From NCBI GenBank assembly GCA_017429765.1, contig JAFROJ010000064.1, positions 1 to 63,325 on the forward strand: a DNA stretch of 63,325 nt, read 5' to 3'. The position numbers and the translations under genes are program-made. Shown here piece after piece: positions 4,173 through 58,251 of the stretch; the stretch's first letter is position 1; each line of letters starts with the position of its first letter. This DNA comes from Bacteroidales bacterium (GTDB lineage Bacteria; Bacteroidota; Bacteroidia; Bacteroidales; UBA932). The notes below the pieces were generated by a model. It ran no database searches. It saw only the letters and a program-made list of their open reading frames with translations, and was not told the origin of the DNA.

Positions 4173-5176
4173 CTCTTGTCGAACAAACGCCTGCGGGAAC
4201 GTCTCTCCCCTATTATCCCCTCAAGGGCGAACAGGGCGAGGGCTATGCCCAGAAAATACATGAACTGCTCGTCATATTCCTCGAAGACCACGGAGTTGAA
4301 CTCCTCCTCCCGCATCTTCTTGATGTCGTCGATAATGGGATTCAGGCCGAACTCGTCGTTCCCCGCGCGGACATATGCCCCGCCCCCGGCGGAAGCTATC
4401 TCTTTAAGGGCCTCCTCGTCGAGCCTGGTCACCACGATATTCCCTTCCTTATCCTTGAGTAGTCCTCCGTCCATCGGGATGGGCTGGCCGTCCGGGGATC
4501 CGACTCCGATCGTGTAGACCTTCACGCCAGACTCGGCGGCGAGGGTCGCGGCGGCAACGGCGTCGTCCTCGTGATTCTCACCGTCGGTGATCACGATGAT
4601 CGCGCGGCTGTTCTCGCTCTGTGCGCTGAAACTCTTGACAGCCGTCGTGATGGCGTCACCGATGGCGGTCCCCTGGATGGGGATGGACTCTGTCGAGATA
4701 TTGCCCAGGAACATCTTGGCGCTGATGTAATCGGATGTGATCGGCAGCTGCACGAAAGAGCTTCCTGCGAAAATAATCAGGCCGATCCTGTCTCCCTGCA
4801 ACTTGTCGGTGATCCTGGAGATGGCCAGTTTGGCCCTTTCCAGACGGTTCGGGGAATAGTCCCGCGCGAGCATCGAGTTGGACACGTCCAGGACGACCAT
4901 GATCTCGGCGCCTTTGACCTTATATTCCTTAAGTTTGGCCCCTATCTGGGGGCGGGAGAGCCCGATCACGAAAAAGAAGAACGCCAAAGCGTAGAGGACA
5001 GCCCTGACCCACCTCTTGGACCGGGACCAGGACGGCATCAGCTCCCTGACAAGATCCTCGTCGCCGAACTTACGCAGACGGCGGCGCCTGATCCTCATCC
5101 AAAGGCCGAGACCCAGAAAGAAGAACGGGATCAGCAAGAGCAGGAGCAGATATTGAGGTTGAGCGAATATGATCAT
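4169..5176 (-). CDS. batB: BatB, membrane-anchored VWA-domain protein
   Basis: A 335-residue protein with two N-terminal membrane segments (about 7-27 and 57-74) and a von Willebrand factor A domain (about 88-290). The MIDAS metal site DVSNS is at 97-101. A C-terminal hydrophobic segment (about 309-323) would anchor it again. It overlaps batA upstream and batC downstream by four bases each, the usual layout of the bat operon. VWA domains bind divalent metal and mediate protein contacts; in the family BatA and BatB are thought to form envelope complexes with TPR partners. Its order after batA supports the name. Confidence 0.88.
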   Translation of the reverse strand: MIIFAQPQYLLLLLLIPFFFLGLGLWMRIRRRRLRKFGDEDLVRELMPSWSRSKRWVRAVLYALAFFFFVIGLSRPQIGAKLKEYKVKGAEIMVVLDVSNSMLARDYSPNRLERAKLAISRITDKLQGDRIGLIIFAGSSFVQLPITSDYISAKMFLGNISTESIPIQGTAIGDAITTAVKSFSAQSENSRAIIVITDGENHEDDAVAAATLAAESGVKVYTIGVGSPDGQPIPMDGGLLKDKEGNIVVTRLDEEALKEIASAGGGAYVRAGNDEFGLNPIIDDIKKMREEEFNSVVFEEYDEQFMYFLGIALALFALEGIIGERRSRRRLFDKR

Positions 5177-20939: not shown

Positions 20940-21812
20940 TTGGATACCGAACTCATAACCTCGGGCCAGAACCCGAAGATCAAGTCGTTGCTCGAGCTTC
21001 AGGAGAAGTCCCGGGAGCGGAGGCGTCAGGGACTCTTCGTGGTCGAGGGGCGCCGTGAGGTCGGGCACTGCCTCGACGCCGGCTTCGTCCCCGAGGCTTT
21101 CTTCATCTGTCCTGACATCTATGCCCCCTCCGGGGAGGGTATGCCCCCTGAGGGACGTGCCACCCGCGGCACGGTAGCGGGGGTGGGGTCGAGCGAAGCG
21201 AGACTCCTGAAGGGGGCATGGCCCTCCCCGGAAGGGGCGAGAGTCTTCCATGTCAGCAAGGAGGTGTACGGGAAAATAGCCTACAGGGGCGGGACGGAAG
21301 GGATTGTGGCTGAGATGAGATACAAGGAGAGGAAGCTCGAGGACATCAAGCTGGGAGAGAACCCGCTGGTCGTGGTGCTGGAGAGCGTCGAGAAACCTGG
21401 GAACCTCGGGGCGGTGCTGCGGAGCGCCGACGCGGCCGGAGCCGACGCCGTCATCATCTGCGATCCACTGACAGATCTCTACAACCCCAACCTCATCCGC
21501 GCCAGTCTCGGCTCGATATTCACAAGACAAGTCGCCGCGGCAGGGTCTGAAGAGACCGTCGCCTGGTTGAAAGACAACGGCCTGAGGATCCTCACGGCCC
21601 AGCTCCAGGACTCTTCCCTCTATTACGACACACCCATGACCGGCCCCACCGCCATAGTCATGGGAGCCGAATCGACCGGACTCACAGACATCTGGAGAAA
21701 GGCCGCCGACAAACACATAAGCATCCCGATGCTCGGCTCGCTCGACTCGCTGAACGTGTCAGTCTCCGCGGCCATACTCCTCTTCGAGGCTGTCCGACAG
21801 CGGAACCGCTGA
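20940..21812 (+). CDS. TrmH/SpoU family RNA 2'-O-methyltransferase with in-frame palindromic insert
   Basis: A 290-residue SPOUT methyltransferase. The N-terminal substrate-binding domain starts LITSGQNPKIKSL; the catalytic domain has motif 1 ESVEKPGNLGAVLRSADAAG, motif 2 VMGAESTGL and motif 3 IPMLGSLDSLNVSVSAAI. It methylates a ribose 2'-OH in rRNA or tRNA with SAM; the target nucleotide is unknown. About 40 residues (about 61-100) in the N-terminal domain, rich in Gly, Pro and Ser, are encoded by a palindromic repeat element (21122-21237) and look like an insertion between two beta strands. The start is TTG at 20940, since no ATG is suitable; it follows the lysS stop by 2 bases. Confidence 0.87.
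   Translation: MDTELITSGQNPKIKSLLELQEKSRERRRQGLFVVEGRREVGHCLDAGFVPEAFFICPDIYAPSGEGMPPEGRATRGTVAGVGSSEARLLKGAWPSPEGARVFHVSKEVYGKIAYRGGTEGIVAEMRYKERKLEDIKLGENPLVVVLESVEKPGNLGAVLRSADAAGADAVIICDPLTDLYNPNLIRASLGSIFTRQVAAAGSEETVAWLKDNGLRILTAQLQDSSLYYDTPMTGPTAIVMGAESTGLTDIWRKAADKHISIPMLGSLDSLNVSVSAAILLFEAVRQRNR
21122..21237 (+). repeat. Intragenic palindromic repeat element (copy 1)
   Basis: The ends form a long imperfect inverted repeat (GCCCCCTCCGGGGAGGGTAT near 21123 pairs with the CCCTCCCCGGAAGGGG side near 21222-21237). The interior holds a core, TGCCACCCGCGGCACGGTA then GGTGGGGTCGAGCGAAGCGA, shared with the elements at 55797-55946 and 57990-58127. It lies in frame in the TrmH-family gene. Confidence 0.8.
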
Positions 21813-26794: not shown

Positions 26795-27325
26795 TCATCT
26801 GTCAAAAAAATCATTTAGTAGTTCTTCCATGTCAGTACGGTTGGAAAGAAGATCGGCCAGGATGTTGTCGACGTCGTTCATTACAACCTTCTTGTCGGTG
26901 ACTTTCTGTCCGCTCACGTACGAGACACAGACGTTTGTTTTATTATAGAGACTCACCCCGAGGGTGAAGATTAACGCCAGGCTGGCGGCGATGGCGGCTA
27001 CGCGGCGAGCGACCTTCGGCCACCGGGGAGAGATATCCTTCGCTTCGCATAGATCCTTCGCTTCGTATAGATCCTTCGCTTCGGATAGATCCTTCGCTTC
27101 GCTCAGGATGACAGAGGAACGCTTCCTGTCATTCTGAGGGAGCGAACGCGACCGAAGAATCTCCATGGAACGGCCGGCGGCGAAGTAGCCCATGACGGCC
27201 CGGACCTCGTCATATTCGGGAGCCTGGCCCTCCTCAGAGGCCAGGAAAGCCTTAAGAGCTGTTTCTTCCTCTCGTGAGAGAGCCGCCTCAAAATACCTCT
27301 CAATTAATTCAGTTATGCATTCCAT
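26795..27325 (-). CDS. Anti-sigma factor-like membrane protein with in-frame SEAKDL repeats
   Basis: A 176-residue protein. The N-terminal 50 residues (ECITELIERYFEAALSREEE) resemble the sigma-binding helices of anti-sigma factors; a membrane helix is at about 108-126 and a short periplasmic tail follows. It overlaps the ECF sigma gene by 17 bases, which supports an anti-sigma role. Between about 56 and 98 it contains four copies of a six-residue unit, SEAKDL/YEAKDL/CEAKDI, encoded by a palindromic DNA repeat (27031-27162) that has entered the cytoplasmic linker without breaking the frame. Confidence 0.65.
   Translation of the reverse strand: MECITELIERYFEAALSREEETALKAFLASEEGQAPEYDEVRAVMGYFAAGRSMEILRSRSLPQNDRKRSSVILSEAKDLSEAKDLYEAKDLCEAKDISPRWPKVARRVAAIAASLALIFTLGVSLYNKTNVCVSYVSGQKVTDKKVVMNDVDNILADLLSNRTDMEELLNDFFDR
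27031..27162 (-). repeat. Palindromic repeat with 18-base tandem units, inside a gene
   Basis: On the plus strand ATAGATCCTTCGCTTCGN is repeated about four times (27031-27102), then AGATCCTTCGCTTCGCTCAG and GATGACAG, a 10-base spacer, and an imperfect inverted copy (CTGTCATTCTGAG to CCGAAGAATCT, ending 27162). This resembles TCATCCTGAGCGAAGCGAAGGATCT-type repeats dispersed in many genomes. Confidence 0.8.
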
Positions 27326-55804: not shown

Positions 55805-55946
55805 CAGACAGTTCCCCCTCCAGAACCGCCGCTTCGCGGCCCCACCGTTCGACTCGCTCACGGCAAGCCGTTCGCTTCGCTCCGGCCCCCCCTCTTAACG
55901 TGCCGAGGGTGGCAGTGGTTCTGGAGGGGGACTGTCTGCTACCGTT
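55797..55946 (-). repeat. Palindromic repeat element at the sialidase-like gene end (copy 2)
   Basis: The ends AACGGTAGCAGACAGT and CCCCCTCCAGAACC pair with their complement at 55917-55946 in a near-perfect inverted repeat of about 30 bases. The core, read on the minus strand, shares 31 bases (55887-55917) with 58018-58048, including CTGCCACCCTCGGCACGTTA, and also has GGTGGGGCCG. It lies between convergent genes and contains the stop codon of the upstream one, so it may also act as a terminator. Confidence 0.85.
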
Positions 55947-56896: not shown

Positions 56897-58251
56897 ATAT
56901 CAATTCTAATTCTTCTGTTCAGCGGGTGGAGGTTGTTCCACCGTTTCCCGATATTCTTGACAAAGCCAAGGGGGCAACCCTCGTGACAGACGATGAGATA
57001 GCCTTGAGGCTGGCCCTCGACGAACACGCTGTCGCGGTGGAGGAAACGCAAGGCCGTCGGCCGGTCCAGATCCACGGTCGGGTACTTGTCCAGAGGCGGG
57101 AATATGCTCAAGGCCCAGTCCGGATTCGGTACGAAGTCCCGGCCCTTGACCTCTCCTTCGGCGAGACCGTTCCTCAAAGGGTGGAGACAGTCTATGGCCT
57201 GGCGGGTTCTTCCTGAGGGCGAAGTCTTTTCGAGGACGGACACGAACTGTCCCTCCCCTTCCACGAGACCTGGCATGAGGAGCCCTCCTGTCTTGGTTCG
57301 AATCACTCCGGGAAGTGATTGATATTCATAGCCTGACACTTCGGCCCCAAGTTCCTCCGCGGCCCAGAGTACGTTGCCGTCGTTCTCGGATTCCTCGAAG
57401 GTACAGGTGGAATAGACCAGCAGGCCTCCCTGGCGGAGGGCGGGCCAGACATCAGCCACTATCCTTCTCTGGCGGGCGGCGCAAAGGGCCACATTCTCCT
57501 CGGACCATTCCTCCACGGCCCTGGGGTCTTTGCGGAACATCCCCTCCCCGGAGCACGGCGCGTCAACCACGATGATGTCGAAATACCCCTCCAACTTGGA
57601 GAAGGCCTTCGGGTCGGCGCTGGTCACGACCACATTCGGGTCGCCCCAGACCGCGACGTTGTCTCGAAGGACAAGGGCCCTGTCACGCATTACCTCATTC
57701 GCCACCAGAAGGAAACCATCCCCGAAGCGCTGGCGCAGCGAGACTGAGAGGTCGGTGGTCTTGCCGCCTGGGGCGGCGCAGAGATCCAGCGCTCTCACGG
57801 GGCGGCCAAGGCCGTCGAACCGGTCGAGGAACTCGCGGGTCATGTGACCGACGATCATAGCGGACGAGTCCTGGACGTAATAGCGGCCGGCGTGGAAGAG
57901 AGGATCCAGGACGAACTTAGGCCTCTCCTGAAGCATGAAGCCATACTCGTTCCACGGCACCGGCGTCATCCCCCATCCTTCAGACACTTCCTCCCCGAAG
58001 GGCTTAGTGGGTGAGGACACTGCCACCCTCGGCACGTTAAGAGGGGGGACCGGAGCGGAGCGAAGCGACGCGAGCGGTGGGGCCGAGCGAAGCGAGGCAT
58101 CCGAACCCCTAAGGCCCTTCGGGGAGGAGAATTTAAAAGGGTTGTAGCGGATTGAGACGGAGGGGGGCAGGGAGAAGGCGTCGAAGGCGACACGGGCCTT
58201 CTCCGGCCCGACCGCCCTCTCAAGGATGTCCCTCAAAACCCTGTCCTCCAT
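56893..58251 (-). CDS. NOL1/NOP2/Sun family rRNA m5C methyltransferase with in-frame insert
   Basis: A 452-residue SAM-dependent methyltransferase of the RsmF type. SAM motif I is LCAAPGGKTTDL, motif IV DAPCSGEGMFRKD, and motif VI STCTFEESEN; both catalytic cysteines (PCSG and TCT) are present. A C-terminal RNA-binding domain follows. It likely methylates a cytosine of 16S rRNA. A stretch of about 45 residues (about 42-87) rich in Ser, Pro, Leu and Arg, between the N-terminal strand and VPWNEYGFML, is encoded by a palindromic element (57990-58127) and looks inserted. Confidence 0.88.
   Translation of the reverse strand: MEDRVLRDILERAVGPEKARVAFDAFSLPPSVSIRYNPFKFSSPKGLRGSDASLRSAPPLASLRSAPVPPLNVPRVAVSSPTKPFGEEVSEGWGMTPVPWNEYGFMLQERPKFVLDPLFHAGRYYVQDSSAMIVGHMTREFLDRFDGLGRPVRALDLCAAPGGKTTDLSVSLRQRFGDGFLLVANEVMRDRALVLRDNVAVWGDPNVVVTSADPKAFSKLEGYFDIIVVDAPCSGEGMFRKDPRAVEEWSEENVALCAARQRRIVADVWPALRQGGLLVYSTCTFEESENDGNVLWAAEELGAEVSGYEYQSLPGVIRTKTGGLLMPGLVEGEGQFVSVLEKTSPSGRTRQAIDCLHPLRNGLAEGEVKGRDFVPNPDWALSIFPPLDKYPTVDLDRPTALRFLHRDSVFVEGQPQGYLIVCHEGCPLGFVKNIGKRWNNLHPLNRRIRIDI
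57990..58127 (+). repeat. Intragenic palindromic repeat element (copy 3)
   Basis: CCTCCCCGAAGGGCTTAG (from 57990) and CTAAGGCCCTTCGGGGAGG (ending 58127) are near-perfect inverted ends. The core includes the 31-base block 58018-58048 shared with copy 2 and the GGTGGGGCCGAGCGAAGCGA string at 58076-58095 shared with copy 1. It lies in frame in the NSUN-type gene, in the opposite orientation to copy 1 relative to the gene. Confidence 0.85.

Follow-up and report, generated by a model that had tools for sequence, protein, structure and literature searches.

The question raised by this locus is an old one, already known from the Rickettsia elements: how do selfish palindromes persist inside conserved genes? 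The window, that is, the whole stretch of DNA analysed here, comprises 63,325 nucleotides of a Bacteroidales bacterium and carries three copies of a palindromic element of about 140 letters, which belongs to a real and well-supported new family of coding palindromes. The features on which the argument draws are listed below, where R1 is a covariance model built on 43 copies.

20940..21812, + strand: SpoU/TrmH-family methyltransferase gene housing copy 1 (Pfam)
21123..21238, + strand: copy 1, whole element, inside the SpoU/TrmH-family gene and parallel to it; P3 hairpin absent
21153..21207, + strand: copy 1 core, R1 match of 40.9 bits
55797..55946, - strand: copy 2, whole element, between convergent genes
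55823..55921, - strand: copy 2 core, R1 match of 76.3 bits
56893..58251, - strand: RsmF/NSUN-type rRNA methyltransferase gene housing copy 3 (Pfam)
57989..58128, + strand: copy 3, whole element with arms, inside the RsmF/NSUN-type gene and antiparallel to it
57989..58017, + strand: copy 3 left arm
58014..58103, + strand: copy 3 core, R1 match of 85.5 bits
58021..58034, + strand: copy 3 hairpin P2, TGCC-ACCCTC-GGCA, with the loop CCCTC at 58026-58030
58041..58045, + strand: copy 3 GAGGG, 3′ strand of the putative pseudoknot, pairing with the loop at 58026-58030
58082..58098, + strand: copy 3 tip hairpin P4 of the long type, GCC-GA-GC-GAA-GC-GA-GGC
58100..58128, + strand: copy 3 right arm, inverted relative to the left

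Three elements with a common core had been proposed at 21.1, 55.8 and 58.0 kb, and all of them are present: the core pattern TGCCACCC-N-CGGCACG occurs three times in the window (expected 0.00). The 31-base block common to copies 2 and 3 is exact at 58018-58048 (+) and 55887-55917 (-), and when up to three mismatches are allowed it has two matches in the window and none in 100 shuffles. The shortened core of copy 1 is seen as well, and each copy has its own inverted ends of 17-29 nt (79-95%), namely 57989-58017/58100-58128 in copy 3 (29 nt, 79%), 55797-55817/55926-55946 in copy 2 (21 nt, 95%) and 21123-21139/21222-21238 in copy 1 (17 nt, 94%). The Pfam matches agree with the names that had been given to the two interrupted genes, in which the copies lie in frame. 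In the RsmF/NSUN-type (RsmB/F) protein the insert of copy 3 takes up about residues 42-89 of 452, directly followed by the RsmF_N match (residues 89-128), which starts at profile position 47; in the SpoU/TrmH-family protein the insert of copy 1 covers about residues 62-101. The original prediction placed both intragenic copies antiparallel to their genes, which is correct for the 58.0 kb copy and wrong for the 21.1 kb copy, whose core (21158-21173) and ORF (20940-21812) are both on the + strand. The outer arm of copy 2 extends over the upstream gene's stop codon.

The anatomy of the element was derived from 128 distinct copies and 78 trimmed cores. From its start it consists of a site-specific outer arm, ACC (or AC) plus AC, the hairpin TGCC-ACCCTC-GGCA, CGTTAA and GAGGG, followed by a variable hairpin P3, GGTGGGG or GGGAGGGG, the tip hairpin P4 and the opposite arm; P4 comes in a short form, GCCGCGAAGCGGC, and a long form containing tandem G-A steps, GCCGAGCGAAGCGAGGC. 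Because GAGGG complements the loop CCCTC, the core is predicted to form an H-type pseudoknot. At least four of its five pairs are kept in 54/54 aligned copies, in which the loop types CCCTC, CCCTT, CCCGC, CCCAT and CCCGT each have the matching strand opposite, and the loop CCCGC of copy 1 is able to pair with GCGGG. Over the entire structure, pairing is found in 92.3% of cells versus 79.9% in shuffles, and the covariation score is 0.283 versus 0.110, with 0 of 500 shuffles as high; these statistics are biased toward the structure, since the alignment followed the model. Slid versions of the structure reach 31.6-52.2% pairing.

Eleven of the 128 copies had an arm score below the threshold of 12 and were excluded, and the 117 analysed form 64 site clusters, that is to say, there are fewer sites than copies. 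The arms are 20-35 bases long in 99/117 copies, and 44-117 bases lie between them. Divergent members with the loops CCCGC, CCCGT and CCCAT were seen at L284:1677-1755, L291:1371-1447, L204:1-76 and L248:2119-2207 (L numbers denote stretches, G numbers genomes), and two divergent members adjoin other copies in G278, a genome of another family. Nested or tandem arrangements are found in L161, where a foreign stretch follows CGGCACG (core at 4527), in L282, where at about 1460-1570 an element adjoins a second core start, and in L104, where two cores at 2459 and 2567 are 108 bases apart.

The proposal of a dispersed family is borne out by the host genome (2.36 Mb, 75 contigs), in which the core occurs at well over three places: the core pattern has 28 matches (reversed control, 0) and R1 matches 38 places (E ≤0.01). 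A second covariance model, R2, made from 54 matches, finds the element in 82/121 genomes sampled within the genus (host counted in), which we suspect to be Candidatus Cryptobacteroides, and in 38/54 near-complete ones, with up to 36 copies per genome when at most 39 candidates are scored in each. Under strict filters and with 11 or 12 candidates scored per genome, a sample of the phylum contains the element in 1/395 genomes, the host alone, and R1 matches 4/393 genomes of the order, host included; the three others belong to another genus of the same family (one) and to other families (two), and two further genomes of the same genus are without a match under these filters. The element family is thus centred on one genus and rare beyond it. 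At least 107 stretches with the element lie on named genome contigs, and among the 80 titled matches listed all are from Bacteroidales or Bacteroidia and from uncultured or metagenome assemblies, and wherever a source is written it is yak, water buffalo, roe deer, goat, reindeer or horse. Rfam at curated thresholds gave 0 matches in the window, and at relaxed thresholds nothing credible, with weak overlaps such as mir-6529 on L111 (27.1 bits, cut-off 71). In the open-access literature as covered by titles and abstract openings, with few subscription journals, no description of the element family was recognised.

By itself, GAGCGAAGCGA is a weak probe (57 matches versus 19 in the reversed control, partly other repeats), and a lone exact GAGCGAAGCGA at 27094-27104 (-) of the window has no model match nearby. 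Other palindromic repeats, of the forms CATCCTGA...GAGCGAAGCGA...GAAGGATC and CTTGTCGAAGG, were seen at the TrmH site of G096 (L225), in L252 at about 2150, in L326 and in L328, and pieces of them lie near some Y1 transposase places.

For the comparison of empty sites 12 genomes were searched and 20 stretches fetched. Empty orthologous sites, which had been named as support for mobility, were found in 4/4 of the fetched stretches for L103, 3/3 for L088 and 4/5 for L093, the fifth of which holds a different copy in the opposite direction. At the site of copy 2, five relatives have both neighbours; four of these are empty, and an element in reverse orientation is present in the fifth, G066. As for the two genes, close relatives and outgroups all carrying the insert had been named as an outcome that would speak against a mobile family; close relatives mostly do carry it, with the insert in 6/6 at the NSUN site (L192-L197) and the element family in 5/6 at the TrmH site, the sixth carrying another repeat, but more distant orthologues are free of it at both genes (NSUN: L198, L199; TrmH: L228, L235, L237, L250). 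Since orthologous sites are empty, copies come and go. Moreover, a relative at the L113 site (L300) has arms and no core, and at the L137 site (L303, G017) a partial arm remains without a core; this remnant could stem from a deletion that joined short direct repeats of the arms, or could represent the state before insertion. As targets, pre-existing terminators were considered and found unsupported at L103, L088 and copy 2: in the empty relatives the convergent stops are separated by between a few and about 30 bases, with no such hairpin seen. For target-site duplication there is one candidate, CTAG at L126, which is itself palindromic.

Another explanation, which we regard as doubtful, is that the element is REP-like and is moved by a Y1 (REP-associated) transposase. 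Among 121 genomes, 72 have both the element and Y1_Tnp, 10 the element only, 17 Y1 only and 22 neither (p = 1e-6); the hand-taken counts for near-complete genomes are 36, 2, 6 and 10 in the same order (p = 1.7e-5), and Y1_Tnp occurs in 34/36 genomes with at least 10 copies. This association ignores kinship, and assembly quality is addressed by the near-complete subset alone. Against the explanation stands the absence of any match to the element model in the stretches around 23 Y1 places (3 in the host, 20 selected), whose positions rest on other searches, a motif check having placed the Y1 gene in 0/23. When the 2615 ORFs from element loci were clustered in search of a parent element, no transposase was recognised by eye among the top 40 clusters.

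In the ends and the direction of the copies lie two points that the original prediction had missed, namely that the ends are not shared terminal repeats and that the element is found inverted in place. Among 149 elements the orthologous pairs, which are not independent, comprise 62 in the same and 72 in opposite orientation; with flank identity of at least 90% the numbers are 3 and 4, and both orientations occur in 23/33 site clusters, all these comparisons being between species-level genomes. The clearest case is L115 versus L192 in the RsmF/NSUN-type gene, where flank identity is 95% and 89% and arm similarity 0.88 and 0.96. Aligned unaltered, the two stretches (234 and 243 bases) are identical in 181/256 columns; after the L115 element has been inverted computationally, 219/243 columns are identical to L192. 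In addition, the extra base of one arm switches sides, that is, the arm asymmetry is swapped, and the same swap is seen in L117/L165 and in L085 or L123 versus L107 or L089. From such alignments, inversion in place between species can be regarded as demonstrated in at least one gene and as indicated widely.

Opposite orientations could also arise at hot spots, tolerant sites struck repeatedly by independent insertions in either direction and with no inversion. Different arms and core subtypes at one place in L093/L309 and L082/L312, the different repeat family of one relative at the TrmH site (L225) and the unlike arms at the NSUN site in G033 and G096 are in keeping with this. Some opposite pairs do have unlike arms, for example L056/L167, and therefore some may be separate events, not inversions. 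As a general account it is unlikely, since several opposite pairs have near-identical arms (besides L115/L192, L117/L165 with 0.88 + 0.88 and L087/L103 with 0.81 + 0.89) and the small arm asymmetries swap sides, as inversion predicts.

It is far less probable that hairpins were simply mis-oriented in metagenome assemblies. This would fit the origin of all 80 titled matches listed and the fact that 6/38 host copies are 150 bases or less from the end of a contig (0.36 expected), an excess that could reflect mixtures of orientations or simply repeats breaking the assembly. In opposition to such an artefact, the arms are short, the coding frame is kept in both directions, the direction differs between records of different projects (L115 from RUG579; L192 from the genome of RGIG7537) and the inverted copy has its own substitutions. 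Contig-end copies were observed in G000 on C21 (both ends), C51, C54, C60 and C62.

The arms themselves are near-perfect inverted repeats, different at each site, and there are no family-wide terminal repeats; similar arms occur only in subsets of copies, some of which also share wider flanks. In 42 orthologous pairs of the same orientation, mutually non-independent, 221 of 1035 arm positions changed on both sides and 130 on one, and 179 of the 221 double changes are exactly compensatory; by hand arithmetic about 79 double changes are expected if the sides are independent and the one-sided changes evenly split. Furthermore, the final eight bases of the gene upstream of copy 2 recur inverted in the far arm, and at L050 seven bases of the host gene recur inverted in the arm, bases that the empty relatives lack on that side; therefore, arms can grow outward. 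The idea that arms do no more than repeat the flank in inverted form has partial support: it fits copy 2 and L050 versus L173, and fails at L137/L171, L056/L151 and L162/L112, whose empty sites lack the arms. Between convergent genes a TAG...CTA at the edges of the arms is a palindrome by nature, and it was left uncounted. Transposition of the element together with its arms was considered for the similar arms of the G278 and RUG14092 copies, which partly share wider flanks and may therefore be larger duplications.

Paired change of this kind is what selection on a transcribed RNA would also leave, be it a terminator, a stabiliser or a processing site whose fold is maintained. The covariation is strong in core and arms, 23/78 intergenic copies lie between convergent genes and many are within about ten bases of a called gene end. 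In each of the three groups G-T slightly exceeds A-C among the arm mismatches (intergenic 47/35, with the gene 13/11, against the gene 5/3), but the total of 65 versus 49 (65/114) is not significant (p = 0.16), so that it is neither a clear sign of selection at the RNA level nor proof against it. Orientation is random between orthologues, Rfam offers no family at curated and none credible at relaxed thresholds, and the covariation can arise from template switching itself; taken as the main explanation, an RNA element is improbable.

With regard to the coding copies, a simple codon-usage gene caller placed 39/117 copies inside genes and 78/117 between them; hence the notion of a family that lives inside genes holds for the in-frame intragenic copies, but most copies are intergenic. 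Inside genes, the tip hairpin is long in 37/37 classed copies (2/117 copies remained unclassed), and the intergenic copies divide into 16 long and 62 short (p = 8e-18); when site clusters are counted, long and short tips number 18/0 inside and 12/37 outside genes (p = 9e-9). Copies parallel to the gene read a single frame (TTATLGTLRGGTGAERSEASGGAERSEAVE-like) in 25/27 cases and antiparallel copies another (STASLRSAPPLASLRSAPVPPLNVPRVAVVS-like) in 12/12, which amounts to one frame per strand in 37/39 copies, a count that still includes the out-of-frame copies L074 and L190, perhaps misplaced by the gene caller. A second frame is also open through the core on each strand (hand reading). In copy 3 the used frame runs through the element from end to end without a stop on either strand, and the two readings have their first six and last four residues in common; three of the other four frames have stops, and the fourth has a net charge of +11.

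The length of the core could be read by pattern in 33/39 intragenic and 72/78 intergenic copies. For the 33 intragenic cores it is 2 mod 3 without exception; for the intergenic ones it is 2 in 17, 1 in 36 and 0 in 19. By hand arithmetic, only length class 2 maps the mild frame onto the mild frame upon inversion, and frequent inversion would select this class. The class could also be a founder effect, because the coding copies share the long tip hairpin. Ten of the 17 intragenic hosts with coordinates were scanned with Pfam. The insert lies between the lipoyl and E3-binding domains of a 2-oxoacid dehydrogenase acyltransferase (98-150) and between the N- and C-terminal domains of a family 3 glycosidase (422-461), and the further hosts include GARS (purine synthesis), LytB, ribosomal RNA adenine dimethylase, an aminotransferase, UvrA-type, GHMP kinase, MatE and periplasmic binding proteins.

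One may go further and suppose that the coding copies are a flip-flopping protein cassette, inverting so often that both orientations occur among sister cells, with core length and frame tuned by selection so that both work. This stronger reading is a possibility that we hold tentatively, with the balance against it. If it were true, housekeeping proteins, among them RsmF- and TrmH-type methyltransferases and the linker of the 2-oxoacid dehydrogenase acyltransferase, would exist in two in-frame versions carrying unrelated inserted peptides.

The reading that we favour, with moderate confidence, is that of a palindromic family that lives like the Rickettsia palindromic elements (RPEs), its arms homogenised and its body flipped, probably by template switching in replication. 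The polymerase would switch template inside the hairpin at the replication fork. A switch within one strand would copy one arm onto the other, which would keep the arms paired and at the same time let them diverge fast and extend into the flank; a switch between strands would invert the body between the arms. Insertions surviving in genes would be those that add whole codons, are read in the mild frame and have a core length of 2 mod 3, and a flip of such a core would alter the peptide and bring neither a stop nor a strongly basic frame. In yeast, a template switch from one inverted repeat to the other is reported both to make the arms alike and to turn the spacer round, recurrently and also in coding DNA (PMC8604942). 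The inverted spacers given there are of 2-5 bases and short spacers favour the switch (PMC8604942), so that the 44-117 bases between the arms of the element count against template switching.

The family bears on the question of persistence, since the rule that holds over many copies and species, a single frame on each strand and a single length class, corresponds to the needs of a repeatedly inverted insert. Its many sites also document in nature how arms are homogenised, how they grow and how elements invert, and the family may supply protein variation without a recombinase.

Among known systems, the intragenic DNA inversions (invertons) of Chanin et al. in 2024 are reportedly inversions within a gene that alter the protein. 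The element resembles them in having its body in both orientations at one locus, between species in 23/33 clusters, and differs in that its arms are different at each site, though the shared core could be a recombination site. REP sequences and MITEs (Correia/NEMIS) are described in part of the sources as small, dispersed and structured, often between convergent genes, and the Neisseria repeats as having intragenic and intergenic size classes (PMC3733652, PMC2229807); unlike them, the element has no conserved terminal repeats, and no transposase was seen adjoining its copies. In relation to REP with RAYT, the element co-occurs with Y1 transposases across genomes (kinship ignored) but flanks none of the 23 places. 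In plastid genomes, small stem-loop inversions are common between near relatives and often parallel or reversed, but the seven reported in the relevant part of that source are all non-coding and form no dispersed family (PMC9887819). Template switching in yeast is alike in arm homogenisation and spacer inversion, whereas, in the portion of the paper concerned, it acts on chance repeats with 2-5-base spacers (PMC8604942), and here it would act on a dispersed family with 44-117 bases between the arms. The closest likeness, already proposed in the original prediction and supported here, is to the RPE and WPE, palindromes of about 100-150 bp that, in the sections of the sources treating them, lie in genes with the frame intact and at solvent-exposed places, orthologues sharing sites or holding different groups there (PMC3767692, PMC2229807). 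Like the Rickettsia palindromic element, the present element is a palindrome of this size class inserted in frame in genes; compared by description, it is distinguished by its different lineage, by arms that are not family-wide, by its predicted pseudoknot core and by copies inverted in place.
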